From NCBI RefSeq assembly GCF_024699965.1, contig NZ_JAJOMZ010000004.1, positions 1,734,001-1,798,000 of the forward strand: a DNA stretch of 64,000 nt. The letters are read 5' to 3'. The DNA comes from Flavobacterium sp. J372. GTDB taxonomy: Bacteria; Bacteroidota; Bacteroidia; Flavobacteriales; Flavobacteriaceae. Below are positions 8,385 through 59,976 of this stretch, piece by piece. The position numbers and the translations under genes were made by a program. Under the pieces are notes generated by a model. That model was given only the letters and a program-made list of their open reading frames with translations. It made no database searches and had not been told where the DNA came from. Each line of letters begins with the position of its first letter. Position 1 is the first letter of the stretch.

Positions 8385-8819
8385 TAAAATAATTTTATAA
8401 TTAAGAAAATAGTCGTATATTTGCAACGTGGTTTCAGCAGCGCACCTGCCCGAATGTTACAGGCGGGGATTCAACTAGAGTAAGCAGATTTAAACAGATT
8501 TCTAAAGGTTCAGTGAAGCTGTCACACTGAGCTTGTCGAAGTGCTTTTTTCCATGTCGAACGCAGCCTGCAGAGTTGAGACATCTTTTATGGAACGCGCC
8601 TGCCCGAATGGTACAGGCGGGGATAACGCGGATTTAGCTGATGAACGCGGATTTTCAGCAGGAGTGAAGCTGTCACACTGAGCTTGTCGAAGTGCCAACG
8701 ATGAGTGAACAGGTTCTCTGTCATTGCGAGGCACGAAGCAATCTTAGAGGCGCTAGGAGTGTGTTATTTAAGTGCCACGCGAAGGGATTCGCGCGGGAGC
8801 GGGGGGAATGTCGGAAAAA
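8385..8819. repeat. Repeat-rich intergenic region
   Basis: No gene is visible in these 435 bases. They contain two diverged copies of a composite unit of about 150 bp: element A (core CCTGCCCGAATG.TACAGGCG) at 8441-8470 and 8595-8624, and element B (core CACACTGAGCTTGTCGAAG) at 8512-8544 and 8663-8694. A third repeat-like word, CATTGCGAGGCACGAAGCA, lies at 8720-8738. All three have the look of multi-copy intergenic repeats in Bacteroidota chromosomes. The short ORFs across this stretch have no coding character. Confidence 0.7.
8416..8423 (+). promoter_or_regulatory. Orphan -7 promoter-like box
   Basis: TATATTTG followed by C is a perfect match to the Bacteroidota -7 consensus TAnnTTTG. No recognisable -33 TTTG sits at the correct spacing (TTTT is present), and no gene follows on the plus strand, only repeats. 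It may be a relic of a deleted gene. Confidence 0.3.
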
Positions 8820-9602
8820 TTATGCTACTAATAGTTTTCTGTTTCTGTCACTGTCACGTTCCGACCACAAAATATAGTCAGCTTCTTTAGCATTTAACGC
8901 GTCTAAAAATTCGGTTTTTATCTCTCTTCCAATATCATTAATTACGGCAATTGCCGTTACATTTTTCTTTGTAATTTTTTCTCGGACTGGTTTAATATCT
9001 TCCCAAGAAAATAAAAACGATGAAAGATTTGATTTATTTACTGTATTGAATGACTTTAGAACTATCTCTTCATTTCTTTTAGCGATTTGGAAATCAAAAT
9101 TGAATTCTAAACCCGTCACACCTTTAGAAATAAAATCAGGTGTATATATGAGGCCGATTTCATCTAGGTAGTTCCTCACATCTTCCTTAAAAATTGAAGA
9201 AACATTGCTTTTAGATAAAATATACATGTCATTAATTTCAATAATTGCAGACAAAAGATTGTGTTTTGATTGTGCAAAATTTTCAAAATTAGTCTCAACA
9301 ATTAATTCGTCATTGATTTCTCTAATGCCGTAATTAAGTAAGATGGCATCAACTAAATATCGTCTTTTTTTTGAACCTTGTATATGCACACCTTGCAATT
9401 CTAAATTTGAAATTGTTTCGCCATTATCACTTAATGTGAGATGTGAACCATTTTTCTTTGCGTATATTTCTATTGTGTCATTAAATGCACCTAAAAAAGG
9501 CGTACTTATCAGGGTCCATTCTGTGGAATGGTCCTCTTGAATAACCGTTTTTTCTCTTAACCAGTTATAATAGTAATCGACATGTGTGTTTATCCAACTC
9601 AA
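8820..9602 (-). CDS. DUF1828/DUF1829-domain protein, second gene of a two-gene accessory cassette
   Basis: The 260-residue soluble protein has an N-terminal DUF1828-type domain (about residues 28-118, with 'TPFLGAFNDTIEIYAKKNG' and 'LTLSDNGETISNLELQG') and a C-terminal DUF1829-type domain (about 150-240, with 'GVTGLEFNFDFQIAKRN' and 'AIAVINDIGREIKTEFLDAL'). Both domain families are of unknown function and are scattered across genomes, often in mobile or prophage settings. I see no catalytic motif I can name. The start (9602) overlaps the stop of the preceding gene by four bases, so the two are translationally coupled. The coding sequence is visibly more AT-rich than its neighbours, and repeat-rich DNA lies at its 3' side; both suggest horizontal acquisition. 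Confidence 0.75.
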   Translation of the reverse strand: MSWINTHVDYYYNWLREKTVIQEDHSTEWTLISTPFLGAFNDTIEIYAKKNGSHLTLSDNGETISNLELQGVHIQGSKKRRYLVDAILLNYGIREINDELIVETNFENFAQSKHNLLSAIIEINDMYILSKSNVSSIFKEDVRNYLDEIGLIYTPDFISKGVTGLEFNFDFQIAKRNEEIVLKSFNTVNKSNLSSFLFSWEDIKPVREKITKKNVTAIAVINDIGREIKTEFLDALNAKEADYILWSERDSDRNRKLLVA

Positions 9603-10099
9603 AATATCGCGTGTTGTATATTTAATTTTGATGTGACGTTTATGTGTTTTGCAAAAGTATCTATTAATGTAAATAAATCACCTACATCTTTTATGTCTTT
9701 TATTGGAAAGGTGGTTTCTTCAAGGGGTATTGCCCATGCAAGAGGTCTGTAGTCTTCTACAAATATATGCATGTGGGGTTGATCGAAATTAATCCATTGG
9801 CCAACATAATTGCGCAGGAACTCAGGAACCGACGGTTTAATTTCTTCTGGATTTTTATGGGAGCCTTTGAAGTCTATGCGAATTAAGCCGATATGATTAT
9901 TAGTTTCATGATGGTGTAGGCTTGTTTTTAATATTATTTTTTTATTTGAAGTAATTTCTATTAAAAACTCAACCTCTGTATCTTCATGACTTATCAATTC
10001 TACCTTATTTTTCTTTTGGCCTAAATCTATAATAAATTCAGGATCTTTTAATACCTTATTCAAACTTAATAGATATGATACTTCTTCGTTGGTGAGCAT
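9599..10099 (-). CDS. Conserved hypothetical (DUF6978-like), first gene of the accessory cassette
   Basis: The 166-residue soluble protein begins MLTNEEVSYLLSL and contains an all-beta stretch (FLIEITSNKKIILKTSLHHH), a conserved-looking 'IGLIRIDFKGSHKNPEE' and 'HMHIFVEDYRPLAWAIPL'. It ends in a short helical region. The pattern, size and pairing with a DUF1828 gene resemble the DUF6978 family, which has no assigned role; I am only moderately sure of that name. The His-rich segments (LHHHETNNH, PHMHIF) could bind metal or form an active site, but this is speculation. It overlaps the next gene by four bases (ATGA type) and is AT-rich like it, so the two move and are expressed as a unit. Confidence 0.65.
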   Translation of the reverse strand: MLTNEEVSYLLSLNKVLKDPEFIIDLGQKKNKVELISHEDTEVEFLIEITSNKKIILKTSLHHHETNNHIGLIRIDFKGSHKNPEEIKPSVPEFLRNYVGQWINFDQPHMHIFVEDYRPLAWAIPLEETTFPIKDIKDVGDLFTLIDTFAKHINVTSKLNIQHAIF

Positions 10100-13283: not shown

Positions 13284-15735
13284 ATGCCGTTTTTCATTGA
13301 AGTTATCCTGCCGCTGGCGTTGCCGAAATCGTTCACCTATGCGGTGAATGAGGCGGAATATAACTTCATAAAAACAGGGATGCGGGTTGCAGTACCATTC
13401 GGGAAGAACAAGATTTACACAGGGCTGGTTACTTCATTACACCAAATGCCGCCACAACTTTACCAGGCGAAAGACATTCACCAAATACTTGACGAAACGC
13501 CCCAAGTAACAGAAATACAACTCAAGCACTGGGAATGGATAGCAGCGTACTACATGTGTACCATTGGCGAAGTCTACAAAACCGCAATGCCGAGCGGTTA
13601 CCTGTTGGAAAGCGAGACAATAATTTCGGCACTGACCGACTTCAGGCAAAGTGATGACCAGCAGCTTTCAGATGAAGAGTATCTGGTGTACGAAGCCTTG
13701 CAGCAGCAATCATCACTTAAGGTTCAGGATGTGGTTTCTATTCTCAATAAGAAAACTGTGCTGCCGGTAATCAACAGGCTGATGGCAAAAAATGCCATTT
13801 CACTTCAGGAAGAGATAAAGGAAACCTATAAGCCAAAACTGGTAAAATACATACGCCTGCAGGAGGAGTTTCGCAACCAGGAACAGTTAGAAGAGTTGAT
13901 GGAAATACTTTCCCGGGCGCAAAAGCAACGTGAAACCGTGTTGTTGTACTTTCAATTGCAGGCTCAGGAAAAAAAGCCTGTTACCGTTAAAAAACTTATT
14001 GAATCCGGTGCAACTGCTGCCGTAATAAAATCGCTTGCTGATAAAGGCATTTTTGAGGAATATCATATTGAAGAAGATCGTGTAAGCTTTTCTGAATCGG
14101 ATGACGCAGGTTTTGCATTGAGTAAAAAACAACATGAAGCGTTCATTTCTGTAAAAGGAAATCTTGAGAAACATCCTGTTACGCTATTGCACGGCATTAC
14201 ATCAAGCGGCAAGACAGAGATTTACATCAAACTTATTGAAGAATACCTGGCGTCAGACAAACAGGTTTTATATCTCCTTCCTGAAATTGCCCTGACTACC
14301 CAGCTCGTGGTACGCCTTACTGCCTACTTCGGAAATAAAGTTGCGGTATTTCATTCTAAGTATTCCAATAATGAACGTATTGAGGTCTGGCAACAGGTGT
14401 TGTCGGGTTCAGGTAAAGCCCAGGTGGTGATAGGGGCGAGGTCGGCTTTATTCTTACCTTTCCAAAATCTCGGACTGATTGTGATAGACGAAGAACACGA
14501 GCAAACTTTTAAGCAGCAGGACCCTGCACCGCGTTATCATGCCCGTGATGCAGCTATTGTGCTGGCAAATTTCCATCAGGCAAAAGTACTGCTCGGTTCG
14601 GCCACGCCATCAATAGAAACATACTTTAATGTTAATAGCGGAAAGTATGGCTATACGGAACTTAAGCAGCGCTTTGGTAATGTTGTCCCGCCCGAGATCG
14701 TGCTTATCGACCTGAAAGAGAAGTACAAGCGCAGGCAGATGAACGGCCACTTTAGTGATACCATGATTGAGGCTATCGGCGAAACACTGTCTGCAGGCAA
14801 GCAGGTAATCTTATTCCAGAACCGGCGGGGCTATTCGCCGTGGGTAGAGTGCATGACGTGCGGACACGTGCCGCAATGCCCGCAGTGCGATGTGAGCCTT
14901 ACGTATTATAAATATAAAAACCAGCTGCGGTGCCATTACTGCGGCTATAACATTGCCAACCCAACCCATTGTCATAAATGCCATTCGGCCGACCTGAGCA
15001 CCAAAGGTTTCGGCACCGAGCAGATTGAAATGGAACTGAAAGCGCTGTTCCCGGAGAAGAACTCATGGCGGATGGACCCAGGATACTACCCGCGGGAAGT
15101 TCGGGTATGAAAAGATAATTGATTCTTTCAAAAACCATGAGATAGACATACTGGTAGGCACACAGATGCTCGCCAAAGGACTGCATTTTGACAATGTGAA
15201 CTTAGTAGGGATTCTCAATGCCGATAATATGCTATACCAGCCCGATTTCCGTGCGTTTGAGCGCGCTTACCAAATGATGGTACAGGTAGCGGGCAGGGCG
15301 GGGCGGAAAGATGTTCGTGGGCGTGTGCTCATCCAGACATACAATCCGCTGCATAATATTATCCGTCAGGTTACTGAAAATGACTATGATGGTATGTTCC
15401 GCGAGCAATTATACGAAAGGCATAATTTTAAATATCCGCCTTACTACCGTTTGGTGCGCATAACATTAAAACATAAAGATTATGAGAAGCTGCGCGATGG
15501 CGCCATGTGGCTTTACAACGTGCTCTCACAAAATCTGGGTGTGCCGGTTTTGGGTCCTGAAGAGCCTGCCATAAGCCGCATTCGCAATGAATTCATTCGT
15601 ACCATAATGGTGAAGATTCCGCAGGGCGGCCAGTTAGGTCAGGTAAAAAATTCAATTGTAAAAATACTAAGCAGTTTTGATGCTGTTCCTCAGTATAAAT
15701 CAGTAAAAGTTTCTGTAAATGCCGACCCTTATTAG
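13284..15735 (+). CDS. priA: Primosomal protein N' (replication restart helicase PriA), frameshifted at 15077-15079
   Basis: This is the 3'-5' helicase that reloads the replisome at stalled forks. The N-terminal DNA-binding domain (FIEVILPLALPKSFTYAV) is followed by Walker A 'LLHGITSSGKTEIYIKL' (about residues 296-312), the DEEH box 'LIVIDEEHEQTFKQQD' and paired zinc-binding cysteines (CMTCGHVPQCPQCD ... CHYCGYN...CHKCHS). The frame breaks after 'KNSWRMD', where an extra C in CCC at 15077-15079 leads to a stop. Deleting it gives 'MDQDTTRGKFGYEKIIDSF' and continues to 15735, for 816 residues, the usual flavobacterial PriA length. Because priA is highly conserved, a sequencing error is more likely than a pseudogene. 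Its end overlaps the convergent regulator gene by four bases. Confidence 0.93.
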
Positions 15736-31306: not shown

Positions 31307-34300
31307 ATGAGAAAAATTACATTTTTGATTGCTTTAATGCTATCAGCTATGTTGTCGGCTTATGCTCAGCCAGTTTCGGGTTACACCCGCACTGTGCTTA
31401 CTGGCCAGACATATACGCCGATAGCAGATGGTACAGTCATTAATACTGTTGCAGGGCTTACTGCCGGTTATATGTCTGTATCACAGGATGACGGAGCAGT
31501 ACTAGTTACATTGCCTTTCACGTTTAATTACGGTGGCAATAGCTTTACACAGGTAACATTTTGTACCAATGGCTGGATTGGCATGGGTGCACAATCTGCT
31601 GTTACGGCTGCTCAGAGTCGTGCCCCAGGAAATTTGTGGACTACTACCGCACCAAACAACGTTATCGCGCCATGGTTTGGTGATTTAGGTGCGAACTTCC
31701 CAACGGGAGGTGGCAGCATGGTGCACGGCACAGTAGGTACAGATGTTTATGCCTTTGAATGGCAAAACGCTGTAGCAAATGGTTTTACTGAAACTACTGC
31801 AAACCGTCTTAACTTTATGGTTAAAATTTATGGACCGGCATCTTCTAACCCGGGAAGGATTGAGTTTTTATATGGCTCAACCATCGGTACTGTAAACACT
31901 GGAAGAGCTATAGGTTTAGAAGATGCAACCGGAGGTGCAGGCAATTTTATCAATGCACTTAATGGTTCAAGTGTTTCAACTATAACTTCATCCGCCTGGC
32001 CGGGCAATGGTAATGGTTACAGGTTTGACCCGGGTTCTACTACATGTACAACTTTATCAGGGGGTACTATCCCTGCTGTACTTTCCGCTTGTAGTGGAAG
32101 CGCACCTGCCTTGATAGATCCTATTGGCGTTACAGCCCCTGTTACGGGTATTACCTATGCATGGGAGCAGTCAACAGACGGAGGTAATGTATGGGTTGCT
32201 GCAGTTGGTGGTACAGGTGCCGCAACGCGTTATTACACGCCACCGGCATATGCAGGAACACCTATTAAGTATAGGCTTAAGGTTTCATGCGGTAGCGAAG
32301 TAGCATACTCAAGTATAGCTGATTTCTCAGGTCCTGCAGCACCTTTCACACAAGCTTCTAATGTTAGCTTTACACCGGGCCTTGGACAATTTGTTGTTAA
32401 TTTTACTGCCGGCAGCGGTACACGCCGTATAGTGGTTGTAAGCGATTCTCCAATTAACGATCCTGTTAATGTTGAAAGTGGGGGGTGCTGCTATTACAGC
32501 GGCAGCAGCCTATGCAGGTGGCGAACAGATTGTGTATGATGGTACAGGATCAAGTGTGACTGTTACAGCAATACCATGTTCTGGAGGTACTTATTATGTA
32601 AAAGTATTTGAATACACAAGGTGTGGTACAGCCGGTAACTATACAATGTTGTTTAATACAACTACTGGTACTAACGCATCAACAATAGTTATAAATCCAC
32701 TGGCTGCGCCAACAACTCAGGCATCAAACGCTGTGATTGTGCCAGGTACAGGCCAATTTACTGTAAACTGGACAAGCGGTAACGGAAATTACAGGTTTGT
32801 ATATATAGATACTAATCCTATACCCGAACCTTTTGATGAGGTAGGTATTCCTGCGCCAACAGCAAATACTGTTTTCCAAAATAATGGCCTTCAGCTTGTA
32901 TATAACGGTACAGGTTCATCAGTAACTGTAACATCACTTCCGTGTTCACCAGGTGATACTTTTTACGTTAAAGTATTTGAAGTAAACCGATGCGGTGTTA
33001 CAGGAGCATTTGATTATGTGTTTAATACAACCACAACTACAAACGGAGCTAGTTATACACTTGGCGCCCCTACTACACAGGTGTCTGGGCTTACAGTAAC
33101 ACCAGATCTTAATAGTGCCACCGTTACATGGGTGAATGGTAATGGTGTACGCAGAAGGGTTATTGTTAGTGATGTACCAATTGCAGATCCGGTAGATGAA
33201 ATCGGTGCAGCTGAAATTACAGGCGCTACATTCTACCAGGGAGGCCAGCAAAATGTTTATGATGGCACAGGTACAACATTTAATTTAACAGGACTGTCAT
33301 GCAACACAACATATTATATAAGAGTATATGAATATTTCAGATGTGGTACTACCGGTGACTATTCATATTTGTATAATACAACAGTTACTGCTGCAAACGG
33401 CACCACATTTACTACTACAGGGCCAATGACTGCTGTTGCTTTGCCACAGGCTACAACCTTTACAGGATTTACAGGAGCTAACCTTAGCACAGTTTCGCCA
33501 AGTTGGAAAGAATCTGCAATACCTACGCCTGCATTAACTAACCCATTAGATGTAAACCCTTCAGGTACAACATCGGCATGGACAAACAGTAGTGTATTAA
33601 GTTCGCCTACAGCCAGGGTTAACCTGTATGGTAGTATAAGAAATGAATGGATTATAAGCCCAAGAGTGAATATCACCGCAGCGGCAAGGCTTAAATTTAA
33701 GGCTGCGATGACAAACTGGAATTCAGCCGCTGTAGATAATGATGGTGGGATGGCTAATGCTACAGATGACAAAGTAACTGTATTGATTTCTAATGACCCT
33801 TGTGGTGTAAACTGGCAGGCTATTTATGAGTTTAACAACTCTAATGCTTTAACAAACCAGCTTACTCAGTTTGAATTTGCTATTGACCCATCTTACATTG
33901 GCCAGCAGGTTTACATTGCATTCCATGCGACAGATGGCCCTACTGATGATACTCCGGATTACGATTTCCATATTGGTGATGTAGTAATTGAGCTTGTGCC
34001 ACAATGTGACGTGCCTACTCTATTAACAGATGCTGTTAGTTTAATCACTGAAAACGGCGCAACTGTTGCTTGGAGCGGACCATCAACAGGCAATCCAACA
34101 GGTTACCAGTATGTTTTCTCGACATCTAATACTGCTCCTGCAGGTGCGGGCACAGAAATTTCAACTACAGGTATAACTGTAAACAACCTTTCTTCTTCAA
34201 CAGAATACTTTACGTGGGTGCGCACGGTGTGCGGATCACTATATAGTAACTGGGTAATGGTAGGAAAGTTTACAACCTTATGTGATGCTCCTGAAATACT

Positions 34301-36573
34301 TACTACTACACCTGCAACAAGATGTGGTATAGGTACAGCTACCCTTGCGGCAACATCTGATGCGGGTACTATTTCTTGGTATGCTGCACAAACCGGTGGT
34401 GTAGCTATTGGTACGGGACCCAAGCTTTACAACTCCTACTATCAATACAACTACAACATATTATGTTGAAGCAAGTTCAGGTGCGCCTGCTGCTACATTA
34501 GGGCCTGTAAACTATCTTTATGGTGGTACTGTGAGTACTGTAGCAAGCCCTTCTACTTCTTATTATGCAATTTTCGACTCAACAGTGCAAACAAAAATTC
34601 AGTCTGTTACAGTATATGCTACTGCAGCCGGACAATTGAATTTACAGTTGGCAAATTCTGCAGGTACAGTGCTGCAAACATTTAACTATACAATTACCGC
34701 AGCACAGGCCAATTCTACAACTACAGTTGCAGGAACACCAATTGTGGTTCCGGTAAATTTTGATGTACCAGTTGGTACAGGCCTAAGGCTTGGTATGGCA
34801 ACCGGAACTACTGCAACTTTACTAAGGAATACAAGCGGAGCAACACCATATTATAATGTTGTAGGGGGTGGTGTTTCATTTACAGGAAACTGGTTTGCTG
34901 ACAATACATACTGGTATTTCTTCTATGATATCAAAATTAATGCAGGATGCAGTTCAGCACGCGTACCGGTAACAGCAACTGTTACTACAGCGCCTGAAAT
35001 TACAGCTACTGCAAATAATGCAGCTATTTGTGCAGGCCAGTCGGCTACTCTTTCAGTAACAAGTTCTAATAGTAACTATACTTATGTGTGGATGCCAGGC
35101 AATCTTACAGGAGCACAACAAACTGTAACCCCTGCAGCTACAACTACATATACTGTTACAGCTACAGATAATGGTACAGGGTGTGTAAATACAGCAACTG
35201 TTACAGTAACTGTTAATTCATTACCAAATGCTATTAGTGTAACGCCTTCTGCATCGCAAGTGTGTGGCTCAACTCCAGTTGCACTTACAGTTACAGGTTC
35301 ATCTGTATCTGGTAATGCAGTATTGGGTTCAGGCACTATTACACCAGCAGCTACTGGTGTTCCAAATCCTCTTACAGGATATTACGGAGGGCAGTGGACT
35401 CAAATGTTATACAAAAAGTCTGAACTTGTAGCCCAAGGTATGGTTGCAGGCTCTGTAATTAGCACTCTTGCGTTTGACCTTTCTGCGGCAGAAGCTGATT
35501 TGGTTGAGAACTTCACCATAAGAATTGGTCATTCAAATGTTGAAGATATGTCTGCAGGTTTTGTTCCTGTGGAACCTCTTACAACAGTTTATTATGAAGC
35601 TGCAATGACGCCTGTAGCAGGAGTAACAGGACTTAAGGTATTCACACTTGCAACACCGTTTACTTGGGATGGTAACAGCAATTTGATAGTTGAGGTTGTT
35701 CATAACCAAGGAACAAGCGGAACATCTTCAGGTACTGTAACAAGAGCAACTACAACTCCTTTCGTAAGCGTTTATTACTTAAGGGTAGACAACGTAGCTG
35801 GTGGTGTAGCAGGGTTCCAATCTCAAAATTACGCTGCCATTACAACAAAAGGGGCGCTTAGCAACAGGCCGAACATTGTTCTTAACTATAACTATAGCAC
35901 TAATGTAACATGGTCTCCTGTTACTGGACTTTATACAGATTCAGCAGCAACTACACCATACACAGGGCAAGCAGCTACGACAGTTTATGCGCTTCCAACA
36001 GTTAATACTACCTATGTAGCTACTGTGACAAATGTATCTAACTGTTCTGCTACTGATGATGCCATTGTAACAATAGGTGCTGCAAACACACCAACAGGTG
36101 AAACATCGCAGGTTATATCTGTAAACTCTCCTGCAGAAGCTACAATTGAAGATATCGTTGTTGCTGAAACAGGTGTACTATGGTACTATAGCCTTGCTGA
36201 TGCGGTTGCAGGTGTAAATGCAATACCAGCAGGTACACAGCTTCAGGCAGGTACAGTATATTATGGTACTCTTCCCGGAGGTTCATGTGCGCCTCTTGCT
36301 GTAACAATTACTGAAATATTAGGTTCTAAAGGATTTAATAAAGCACAATTCAGCTATTATCCTAACCCTGTTAAAGATATGCTTAACCTTAAATACTCTA
36401 ATGAAATATCAGGAGTAGAGGTTTACAATCTTCTTGGGCAAAGAGTTTTAGCTAAGCAGGTTAATGCAACTGAAGCAACTGTAGATATGTCGGGTATTGC
36501 CGAAGGAAACTACATTGTAAGAGTTACATCTGGCAATAGTGTAGAAACTATTAAAATTGTGAAGAAGCAGTAA
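31307..36573 (+). CDS. Very large T9SS-secreted modular surface protein (frameshifted at 32480-32485 and 34419-34421)
   Basis: After correction the product is 1754 residues. It has a signal peptide (IALMLSAMLSAYAQ), a beta-rich N-terminal domain, three tandem modules of about 118 residues (see repeat entry), a jelly-roll-like domain (SWKESAIPTPALTNPLDVN), a fibronectin-III-like domain (ITENGATVAWSGPSTGNP), Ig/PKD-like domains (CAGQSATLSVTSSNSNYTYVW) and a C-terminal type A T9SS sorting domain (FSYYPNPVKDMLNLKY ... VEVYNLLGQRVL ... GNYIVRVTSGN). It is therefore exported through the type IX machinery and attached to, or released from, the cell surface. The frame breaks twice: an extra G in the six-G run at 32480-32485, and an extra C at 34419-34421 (CCC for CC). 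Removing each joins adjacent frames smoothly. A role in adhesion is plausible but unproven. Confidence 0.88.
32337..33411 (+). repeat. Three tandem coding modules (~357 bp each) in the T9SS protein
   Basis: Each module starts with AP.TQAS or similar (32337, 32698, 33058) and contains W/F-based 'PI.DPVDE.G', 'VYDGTGSSVTVT', a Cys ('LPC' or 'ALSC'-like) and 'YYVKVFEY.RCGT.G.Y...FNTTT'. Pairwise identity between modules is high to the eye. They are probably fibronectin-III-like domains, with a conserved cysteine pair that may form a disulfide in each. Confidence 0.75.
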
Positions 36574-36658: not shown

Positions 36659-37656
36659 ATGTATTTTTCGCTGATAATACCTATATACAATCGCCCTGAA
36701 GAGATAGACGAGCTTCTTGTAAGCCTTTCAAAACAAGATTACACAAAGGCATTTGAAGTTGTAATAATTGAAGATGGCTCGTCAATAACATGTAAGCATA
36801 TATGTAGTAAATATGCTGAGCATCTCACAATATCATATTATTATAAGCCAAATTCGGGCCCGGGCGATTCACGCAATTACGGCATGAAAAAAGCACAGGG
36901 AGACTATTTTATAATCTTAGATTCAGATTGTATAATTCCGCCAGGATATCTTTCCTCTGTATCCCGAAGGCTCAGCACACAGTATACTGATTGTTTTGGC
37001 GGGCCTGATGCCGCGCTAGATTCTTTCAGCGATGTTCAAAAAGCTATCAATTTTACCATGACGTCTTTTTGACTACCGGTGGCGTTAGGGGTAAATCAGA
37101 AAATATCGGTAAGTTTCAGCCGCGGAGTTTTAATATGGGCTTATCTAAAAAGGCGTTTGAAGCAACAGGCGGTTTTGGTGATATACATCCCGGAGAAGAC
37201 CCTGATCTTACCTTACGGCTTTGGGATATGGGCTATACTACAAAGTTGTTCCCTGAATGCTATGTATACCATAAACGCCGTATAGACTGGCAAAAATTTT
37301 ATAAGCAGGTAAATAAATTTGGCAAAGCAAGGCCAATATTAGATTACTGGCATCCTAAATATAAGAAGGCAACCTTTCTGTTCCCATCATTGTTTATCTT
37401 AGGCTTTGTGTTTTCTCTTCTACTGTTTCTGTTTGGTGTAAGCATATTTTTGTGTCTTTACATAGTGTATTTGCTTGCTATCTTTATGGTAGCTGCCGTA
37501 ACAAACAAAAGCATTAAAATAGGGTTATTATCTGTAATTGCTATAACTATACAGTTTTACGGCTATGGTACAGGTTATATAGAGTCTTTTATTAAGGTGC
37601 ATTTAATGCGAAGCAAACCTGAATTAGCTTTCCCTGAATTATTTTTTAAGCAATGA
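36659..37656 (+). CDS. Family 2 glycosyltransferase, membrane-associated (frameshifted at 37066-37070)
   Basis: The N-terminal GT-A domain starts 'YFSLIIPIYNRPEEIDELL', has the donor-binding region 'VVIIEDGSS' and the metal-binding DxD 'YFIILDSDCIIPPGYL'. In the given sequence it stops after 'FTMTSF'. One more T in the five-T run at 37066-37070 restores 'TSFLTTGGVRGKSENIG' and continues into 'HPGEDPDLTLRLWDMGY' and two C-terminal membrane helices, for 332 residues. It transfers an unknown sugar to a cell-envelope acceptor on the cytoplasmic side. The end overlaps coaE by four bases. Confidence 0.9.
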
Positions 37657-45302: not shown

Positions 45303-46516
45303 TCAAATCTCATACACTACCAATCCGCTCCTGAATTTCGGTTCTATGTATGTACTTTTTGGAGGCATAATGAGTTTATTTTCTGCCAGTTCTATAATTT
45401 CATTTATAGCGACAGGGTAAAGCATAAAACCTACTTTAAATTCGCCGTTATCTATAGCTTCCTTAATTTCGGTAACGGGTTTTGTACCAGGTATGTATTC
45501 AATGCGCTCATCGGTGCGGAGGTCTCCAATGCCAAGCAACGGGTGCAACACCTTCTCATAAAGTATCTGTGCATCAAGCCTGTCAAGCACCGAACCTTCA
45601 GGCTTTTGCTTGAGTTGTAGCGAGTAGAAATCGTCATCAAGGTACATCCCGAACGATCCTTTCTTTTCAGGCTTCCATAAATGGAGGCCTTTGTTTTCAA
45701 CGATAAAATCTTTATCGAGAACTTTCAGGAACACTTGTTTAGACAAACCATTGAGGTCATGCACCACACGATTATACTCGTAAATATGAAGGTCGTTTTC
45801 TGAAATCAGAAAGCTCATAAAGTAGCTAAGATGCTCATTTCCCGTGGCTTTATCTTCTTCATACAGCATATCTGCTGAAGCCGACCTGTGATGACCATCT
45901 GCAATGTAAAGGCTGGGCATTGCCGCAAATTCCTGCTGAAGCCACTCAATATCTTCATCGCTACTAATACGCCAAAATGAGTGCCTGTCTTTATTTGTTG
46001 TCGCAAAAAGAACAGGGGAGGGTTTGCTTTATAGGCGGACTTCCAGTCTTCAAGGGCTTTGTTTTCAGGGTATGTAATCAACACAGGCTCAGTGTTAAAG
46101 CCAGTCTGGTGCAGGTAATCCTTAAAAAGCTCTACGCGGTATTGCAGCGTGTCTTCGTGTTTTTTGATGACGTCGTTGCGGTAATCTTCAATAGATGTTG
46201 CCGCAATTAATCCGGTAAAAGTCTGATTACCACGTTTTATTTCATAAAGGTAGAAGGCGGGTTTCTCATCCTGCTCCAATATTTGCTGTTCCCTGAATTC
46301 GAGGTATTTTGATTTTACAAGCCTGAACCTTTTTTCGTTCGTCGATTTCTGTAAATTCATGTACAGCGGATTCAGCACGTGCAGAAACGCATATGGGTTA
46401 TAATCAAGCTGTGCCGCCAGTTCGGCAGCGCTGTATTCTTCATACGGGCGCGAAGTAACAAGGCTAACCTTATCGGCACCCGGCAGCACAGCTTTAAATG
46501 GAATTATGTTAGCCAA
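45303..46516 (-). CDS. DUF1015-family protein (frameshifted at 46005-46009)
   Basis: The start 'ANIIPFKAVLPGADKVSLV' and 'LAAQLDYNPYAFLHVLNP' are family-typical. In the sequence as given, the frame slips after 'KANPPLFF' at the five-A run (plus strand 46005-46009). One more base in the run gives 'ATTNKDRHSFWRISSDED' and rejoins the second frame, 'LYIADGHHRSASADMLYEE', with the conserved DGHHR motif. The repaired product is about 404 residues. DUF1015 proteins are of unknown function; the DGHHR motif hints at an enzyme. It lies in a minus-strand series with a 3-hydroxyacyl-CoA dehydrogenase gene 75 bases upstream. Confidence 0.88.
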
Positions 46517-58696: not shown

Positions 58697-59976
58697 TTAT
58701 TTCTTATACGGCGGTAAAAGTTTACTGCTCACTTCGCCAAAACCGATACGCACTTCATCGTTCTGGCAGTAACCTCGCATTATCACCGTATCGCCGTCAT
58801 TTATGAACTTGCGCTCAGTTCCATCGTTAAGTTTCAGAGGATTTTTGCCACCCCATGTAAGCTCAAGCATAGAGCCAAAGCTGTCAGGTGTCGGTCCGCT
58901 TATAGTTCCGCTACCCATAAGGTCACCACTGTTTACACGGCATCCATTAACGGTATGGTGCGCCAGCTGTTGTGCCATGCTCCAGTACATATATTTAAAG
59001 TTACTGTTTGATATAACTGTTTCATCGCCATCTTCGGGGCAAAGCGCCACTTGCAAATTGATGTCAAACGCATGCTCGCCAGTTTGCTGAAGGTATTCCA
59101 GCGGTGTAGGATCTTGTGCAGGTCGGCTGTACGGAATGGCTCTAGCGCATCAAGTGTTACAATCCATGGTGACATTGATGATGCAAAGTTCTTCGCGAGG
59201 AATGGCCCAAGCGGCACATATTCCCATTTCTGTATATCGCGGGCACTCCAGTCATTAAACAGCACCATCCCGAAGATATGCTCTTCAGCCTCTTCAACCG
59301 GGATAGACTCGCCCATAACATTAGCATCAGTAGTGATGAATGCCATCTCAAGCTCAAAGTCTACGAGGCGCGATGGCCCGAAAACAGGCTGAGTCTCGCC
59401 ATTTGGCAGTGTTTGCCCCATTGGCCTGTGTACCGGTATGCCTGACGGTACTATAGTTGAAGATCTACCATGGTAACCTACAGGCAGGTGCAACCAGTTG
59501 GGCAGCAGCGCATTGTCAGGGTCGCGGAACATCATGCCAACATTGGTAGCATGCTCGCGGCTGCTGTAAAAATCGGTATAGTCGCCAATAAGTACCGGCA
59601 GCTGCATCTCTACATCGTCAATGTTAAAGATTACAACATCCTTGTGTTCGCTGTTGTCACGCAGTTCGCCGTTATTCTCGTCAAATAATTCTGCAATACG
59701 GTTACGAACCAGTCGCCATGTCTTACGCCCGTCAGATATAAAATCATTAAGCGTATCCTGCATGAACATATCATCGGTAAGCTCAATGCCTTCAAAATAA
59801 TTCAGTTGCTGCAGCGCGCCAAGGTCTATGGCATAATCGCCTATACGTGTACCTATTGTTACAACGTCATCTTTTGTAATGAACACGCCAAAAGGTATGT
59901 TTTGTATAGGGAAATCACTGTTGGCAGGCACGCTGAGCCATGATTTTCTTGAAGGGTCGTTTGCTGTAAGTGGCAT
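58697..59976 (-). CDS. fahA: Fumarylacetoacetase (frameshifted near 59122-59126)
   Basis: The enzyme splits fumarylacetoacetate in the last step of tyrosine and phenylalanine breakdown. The N-terminal domain (FGVFITKDDVVTIGTRIGDY) is followed by the catalytic fold with 'DYTDFYSSREHATNVGMMF', 'LPVGYHGRSSTIVPSG', 'RLVDFELEMAFITTDANV', 'WSARDIQKWEYVPLGPF' and, in the other frame, 'VNSGDLMGSGTISGPTPDS'. The frame shifts after 'LDALEPFRTA' (one base missing near 59122-59126, likely a C in TCCGG); repair gives 426 residues. Probably a sequencing error. Confidence 0.9.

Follow-up and report, generated by a model that had tools for sequence, protein, structure and literature searches.

What is the role of two AT-rich, overlapping genes that lie between nadC and a TonB-receptor gene in Flavobacterium sp. 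J372? The question was raised by a reading, from the letters alone, of a stretch of 64,000 nucleotides (here called the window), and this original prediction proposed the genes as a candidate accessory cassette, with domains that occur in mobile contexts and, as a guess, a defence or toxin-antitoxin role. The answer that we favour, with moderate confidence, is that they form a horizontally acquired two-gene conflict module of the type PDC-M24, acting by abortive infection or as a toxin-antitoxin pair, in which the DUF6978 protein would be the effector and its partner the inhibitor or sensor. From gene structure, conservation, distribution, placement in phages and predicted folds we infer an enzymatic activity, its inhibition, a trigger and a protective effect. 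The features concerned are these.

9599..10099, minus strand: first gene, encoding the DUF6978 protein (PDC-M24A) of 166 amino acids (PF22398, 1.8e-24; PDLC04537, 6.9e-67)
9767..9880, minus strand: signature span R74...H81-x-N83...H109-x-H111 in DUF6978, from an alignment of 59 sequences
8820..9602, minus strand: second gene, encoding the DUF1828-DUF1829 protein (PDC-M24B) of 260 amino acids (Pfam; PDLC04539, 1.6e-99)
9599..9602, minus strand: TTGA overlap of the first gene's stop codon and the second gene's start codon, from the sequence
9216..9602, minus strand: residues 1-129, DUF1828, with a possible type III secretion chaperone/YbjN-like fold in the predicted structure
8823..9215, minus strand: residues 130-260, DUF1829, with a PD-(D/E)XK restriction-endonuclease fold and a degraded catalytic motif, from predicted structure and alignment
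8421..8800, no strand: dispersed repeats in the intergenic DNA 3' of the pair, from sequence comparison

The reading frames are as first described, and the four-base overlap, within which the second gene starts with TTG, probably couples their translation. The Pfam assignments are all well above cut-off (DUF1828 1.8e-25, DUF1829 2.5e-22, DUF6978 1.8e-24). That the pair is richer in AT than its surroundings is borne out: its G+C content is 31.4%, against 41.6% for the window, and its two genes are the lowest among 67 non-overlapping window ORFs of at least 100 amino acids. The same holds in 22 of 22 relatives (those of the loci L002-L029 with a recognised partner and more than 6 kb of flank), where the pair lies below its surroundings by 5.8 points on average. 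Its neighbours are, as had been stated, a TonB-receptor-like gene and nadC (names from reading translations), and no adjoining gene in the window was seen to resemble a known defence gene, these neighbours lying outside the PADLOC scan described below. The repeat cluster noted on one side is real, with 8421-8470 recurring at 8575-8624 at 78% and a 33-base unit at 8512 and 8663 (8512-8544 and 8663-8695) at 100%, but it is made of dispersed elements, portions of which give partial matches at 22 further places in the same genome. The range 8385-10099, originally assigned to the cassette, holds both genes together with 435 bases that contain no convincing gene. Elsewhere in the window, genes are split over frames, probably by assembly indels, at 13284-15110 with 15166-15735, and at 45303-46516, 31307-36573, 36659-37656 and 58697-59976; they include a priA-like gene, a DUF1015-like gene, and genes for a long surface protein, a glycosyltransferase and a fumarylacetoacetase-like protein (names from reading translations). 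The rlmH gene of this genome is split in the same way, again probably by an assembly indel.

The pair had also been called uncharacterised, which is right for its function but not for its existence, as it is already catalogued. The PDC-M24 models of PADLOC-DB match both proteins over nearly their full lengths, A over residues 1-165 of 166 (6.9e-67) and B over residues 1-254 of 260 (1.6e-99), and in PDC-M24 component A stands directly before B on one strand, exactly as here; no difference was found. The same models match the pairs of three viruses, Staphylococcus phage 37, Streptococcus phage Javan642 and Halorubrum virus Humcor1. The letters PDC are short for phage defence candidate, according to the available part of PMC12548924. 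A literature search, with supplements outside it and sources in part, found neither a published experiment on PDC-M24 nor a use of that name. By these profile matches, then, the window pair is a member of a type already catalogued, for which the literature found holds no experiment. When two PADLOC candidates of other types were put to the test, neither protected, as stated in the accessible text of PMC12409345.

How regularly do the two genes occur together? When 395 genomes of the phylum are scanned, 27 of 30 DUF6978 matches have a DUF1828 gene directly downstream on the same strand, one of the 27 being a deletion remnant in genome G281; no such gene follows the three other matches, G178:C13, G122:C24 and G125:C25, of which the last sits at the end of a contig. 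The 341-residue frame in G281 (L094), which holds portions of both proteins, was considered as a working fusion that would speak for their binding and rejected, as it has neither the H-x-H nor the start of DUF1828. Seen from the other gene, a partner is recognised automatically in 53 of 68 distinct DUF1828 relatives, with the four-base overlap in 36 of the 53; among the other 15, at least L127 starts too close to the end of its contig, and a diverged partner that escaped the filter is present at L110, L112 and L123. From 35 DUF1828 matches that lack a DUF6978 call, 16 loci were read, and an upstream frame with the same signature is present in 12 of them and in 3 of 468 control segments, the pattern having been written after the 16 loci were read. 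In this diverged branch the upstream signature takes the form R-Y-N-G...H-x-x-N...H-I-H; one diverged partner reaches DUF6978 with an E-value of 0.023, below the Pfam cut-off, and has no match to the PDC-M24A model (one member scanned). DUF1828 genes without a recognised DUF6978-like partner upstream are found at L120, L131, L135, L222 and L228, and at L225 a small upstream ORF carries an H-E-H-K-W motif and has no Pfam name.

Which of the two proteins would be the active component? The statement that no catalytic motif is identifiable does not stand for DUF6978, in which the arginine and three histidines of the signature are invariant in 59 of 59 aligned sequences, at identities down to 18%, and the asparagine is present in 58 of 59. 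In phage Javan642 the H-x-H is replaced by R-I-N. The AlphaFold2 model of this protein (pLDDT 91.2, pTM 0.86) gives no confident fold match. The model of the second protein (pLDDT 93.4, pTM 0.67) predicts two parts. The DUF1828 part, with invariant residues P35, D42, D59 and L67, may be chaperone-like, of the type III secretion chaperone fold, and DUF1829 is predicted to have the PD-(D/E)XK nuclease fold, its closest folds in structure comparison including the CRISPR-associated nucleases Can2/Cdn1/Card1 and restriction enzymes. The catalytic (D/E)-x-K is not kept: an acidic residue at position 181 occurs in 0 of the 45 sequences tabulated out of 46, and K183 in 25 of 46. Since this motif is not conserved, DUF1829 is unlikely to be a general catalyst. 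By its R/H/N/H-x-H set, DUF6978 is the better candidate for the active component, with a putative catalytic role.

The favoured reading can then be spelled out as follows. DUF6978 would be a small enzyme whose active site is the R/H/N/H-x-H set and whose most likely activity is that of an RNA-cutting nuclease. The second protein, translated by coupling through the four-base overlap, would bind and silence DUF6978 by means of its chaperone-like DUF1828 part, and the degraded restriction-endonuclease fold of DUF1829 would serve as the part that binds nucleic acid or senses the trigger. Phage infection, or loss of the partner, would free the DUF6978 effector, so that growth of the infected cell stops and the phage is stopped with it.

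The start codons bear on this assignment of roles. TTG or GTG is the start codon of the second gene in all 20 distinct Flavobacteriales loci with the four-base overlap, the window among them, a count that overstates the evidence, since the loci are related and not independent. Leucine is the last residue of DUF6978 in 14 of these loci, encoded by CTT in 11, CTG in 2 and TTG in 1, and by TTA or CTA in none of the 14; yet in 13 of those 14 genes leucine is most often encoded by TTA, which ties for first place in the other one. A TTA or CTA leucine codon at this place would give an ATG start. Outside the Flavobacteriales, an ATG start of the second gene is the rule among the loci listed. The conserved weak start suggests selection for weak translation of the second protein, as would fit a toxin in second place, and it therefore counts against the reading with DUF6978 as effector. 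The roles would then be reversed: DUF1828-DUF1829 would be the effector, a restriction-like nuclease or another toxin, and DUF6978, made first and in excess, the inhibitor or phage sensor. Canonical toxin-antitoxin pairs have the antitoxin gene first, as such a reversal would have it, and the predicted DUF1829 fold near Can2/Cdn1/Card1 would suit a nuclease; D170 of DUF1829 is kept in 43 of 46 sequences, and residue 179 is a glutamate in 30 of 46. DUF6978 also diverges faster, with identities mostly of 55-61% where DUF1828/9 has 72-77%, as sensors may do. We nevertheless consider the reversal unlikely, if still a serious contender, because (D/E)-x-K is missing from DUF1829 while the signature of DUF6978 is the one that stays invariant.

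Where does the pair occur? With the second protein as query, none of 36 other members of the genus matches in one search, and 2 of 60 genomes match, the own one included. The Pfam scan of the 395 genomes finds DUF6978 in 25 (22 above cut-off; 30 matches) and DUF1828 in 53 (62 matches), and two further congeners, G149 and G417, have both. Close relatives in named genomes are 44-75% identical and mostly from Bacteroidota, and metagenome-assembled records named Alphaproteobacteria, Burkholderiales, Fibrimonadaceae and Nitrospiria match as well. Among 42 pair loci compared, in which some genomes are represented twice, nadC lies within the stretch only in the window, and neighbours that recur in at least three loci within 6 kb are confined almost wholly to one Flavobacterium species group, with no operon context in common outside it. 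The exceptions are, at L022, L220 and L229, a type I restriction subunit, and further a glyoxalase-like gene found also at L217 and an ATP-grasp-like gene found also at L002, the latter two named from translations or a Pfam scan.

The surroundings of nadC vary likewise. The gene is present in 59 of 61 genomes of the genus, the own one included, and in 48 stretches upstream of it, of differing length, a TonB-receptor gene of the same family occurs only in G016, in the other orientation. The gene rlmH is missing from 26 of the 48 stretches; in the other 22 its distance from nadC is within 400 bases (3 stretches) or 0.8-8 kb (19 stretches), and in the own genome it is about 37 kb away. The comparison proposed earlier, of whether nadC and the TonB-receptor gene adjoin each other when the pair is absent, thus has no footing, as G016 is the only one of the relatives read in which the two adjoin; the empty-site test was dropped as uninformative, there being no clean empty site for the window's own arrangement. 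Because the arrangement upstream of nadC differs in relatives, the insertion point of the pair cannot be delimited; the pair occupies a variable place beside nadC. Genes on the side of nadC towards rlmH encode an HNH_2 protein in G033, where it lies between the two, and a 357-residue protein with three small look-alike proteins in G024.

Phages carry the pair too. The second protein matches 15 phage records, with duplicates among them (7 from Streptococcus, 4 from Staphylococcus, 2 from Lactobacillus, 1 from Latilactobacillus and 1 from a haloarchaeal virus), and two matches at 38% occur in viral contigs. In each of the four Gram-positive phages read, the pair stands between a repressor or regulator and the integrase. 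In Javan642 the repressor gene is followed by DUF6978, DUF1828 and the integrase, in this order; one gene in phiSP119-3 and four genes in Staphylococcus phage 37 intervene between repressor and pair, with the integrase directly after the pair in both; and in Lactobacillus prophage Lj965 a regulator and a protease gene precede the pair, and a further gene and an annotated superinfection exclusion gene separate it from the integrase. The haloarchaeal virus, the fifth phage record read, carries the pair as well. Pfam identifies the upstream gene as DUF6978 in four of these five viruses, and that of phiSP119-3 is assigned by alignment with them. The stretch between repressor and integrase of temperate phages often holds defence or exclusion genes. 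Judged from sequence comparison, the pair is an accessory, horizontally acquired or mobile two-gene module, in line with the original prediction: the distribution is patchy, neither a universal presence at the same place in the genus nor a fixed metabolic operon was seen, and the phage placement agrees.

A mobile pair of this kind might also be a selfish addiction module, that is, a toxin-antitoxin pair that stabilises phages, islands or chromosomal segments and has no real anti-phage role. It has the type II trait of two small, adjacent, coupled genes, it is carried by prophages and some plasmids, its distribution is patchy, and no defence neighbourhood is evident in the window. Plasmid carriage is rare, however: among 72,556 records, tblastn with the window proteins finds the second gene in 9 and the first in none, although in the single plasmid that was read a diverged DUF6978-like frame stands upstream of the second gene. 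The restriction enzymes found beside the pair in some relatives also speak against pure addiction, which we regard as improbable.

These neighbours were compared with controls from the same genomes (18 of 20 planned, G197 and G345 being left out for want of a usable control stretch). The 138 proteins adjoining the pair match 164 PADLOC models and 136 control proteins match 25 (E <= 1e-20), a rough contrast, as models are redundant, L215 and L216 (two species) have the same arrangement, and the eight largest of 144 control proteins were dropped, which removes large enzymes from the control only. The control's 25 matches, which are complete, comprise AbiE, mads, an RmuC model and a subtilase, with no restriction enzyme; on the test side 25 of the 164 are listed. 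Restriction and methylase Pfam domains are among the listed test-side families and absent from the first 25 of 181 control families. In individual scans of ten large neighbours, taken from 9 loci (E <= 1e-60), six match nothing and four match restriction-enzyme models, type I at L220 and L229, partial type I at L228 and type IIG at L224. At L220 the pair shares with the type I restriction enzyme gene a stretch that runs almost entirely on a single strand, and it possibly lies inside a restriction operon. The guess of a defence or toxin-antitoxin character thus gains from these restriction enzymes and from the candidate models for both proteins; the toxin or defence activity itself is what we infer. 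A regulatory or housekeeping pair (for instance in the control of lysogeny or in stress responses) that simply happens to be mobile would account for the place in the lysogeny region of temperate phages, but is very improbable, given that a repressor or regulator of the phage's own is present in that region, that the chromosomal contexts are unrelated and without a common operon, and that a Pfam scan of either protein gives no DNA-binding repressor domain.

New here is structural and sequence evidence on the possible workings of a widespread candidate, PDC-M24. The DUF6978 signature and the degraded nuclease fold of DUF1829 lead to concrete, cheap mutants and to a prediction of which protein is toxic. 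If the favoured reading is true, a dead restriction-enzyme domain has been put to use in regulating another protein, the effector, and the PDC-M24 module is one that temperate phages bring along in their own lysogeny region.

How does such a module compare with known systems? With the PD-(D/E)XK nucleases Can2/Card1, DUF1829 shares the predicted fold, and differs in that the catalytic (D/E)-x-K is missing or variable and that no CARF domain appears in a Pfam scan of the pair. The pair TumE-TumA (DUF6516) also combines a second gene with a small alpha+beta protein, whose signature R-x-D/N...H...H-x-H is like that of DUF6978. TumE is a validated toxin that inhibits translation and lies predominantly downstream of its partner, as given in the available part of PMC10584680, so the gene order differs, DUF6978 being upstream. 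The window DUF6978 protein has no Pfam match to TumE (PF20126) at E <= 1, and profile comparison by hhalign is not significant (probability 2.4 and 8.6%, P 0.02 and 0.004). A DUF6978 relative from a haloarchaeal virus (L149) reaches TumE at E 0.0028 with 18.1 bits, below the cut-off of 23.4, with unrelated families at 0.005-0.01. The DUF6978 profile places 6 of 38 TumE sequences above all 1140 shuffles (best 0.0011 against 0.031), and in the reverse direction the TumE profile does not separate DUF6978 sequences from shuffles. For TumE itself the counts are 0 of 100 genomes in the family and 4 of 198 in the phylum. As unrelated Pfam families reach similar E-values, the kinship is kept as a weak lead. 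A bolder generalisation, doubtful though worth stating, would make DUF6978 the founder of a large unrecognised superfamily of R/H/N/H-x-H effectors, distantly kin to the translation-blocking TumE and spread from Bacteroidota to Gram-positive prophages and a haloarchaeal virus; its members, including the R-Y-N-G...H-x-H branch that PDC-M24A models miss, would nearly always be accompanied by an inhibitor with a chaperone-like domain and a dead restriction-endonuclease domain, the latter acting as phage sensor.

Finally, consider HipAD/DS-6 (PDC-M66), which consists of a HipA-like kinase and a DUF3037 protein. The text available of PMC13092281 states that DUF1829 occurs in the HipAD partner or antitoxin; as a domain common to HipAD and PDC-M24 it was rejected, being undetected in ten long DUF3037 proteins by our own profile, in the five of them scanned with Pfam and in hhalign with the alignment of all ten. 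HipA kinase and DUF3037 are in turn absent from the window pair by Pfam. What the two systems have in common are overlapping genes with the effector (in the window pair, the putative one) first and a DUF-bearing partner second. In HipAD, loss of the second gene is toxic (available parts of PMC12548924 and PMC13092281) and removal of the kinase abolishes defence (the former source). By analogy, HipAD may be taken as a parallel to the DUF6978 pair, both in gene order and in logic.
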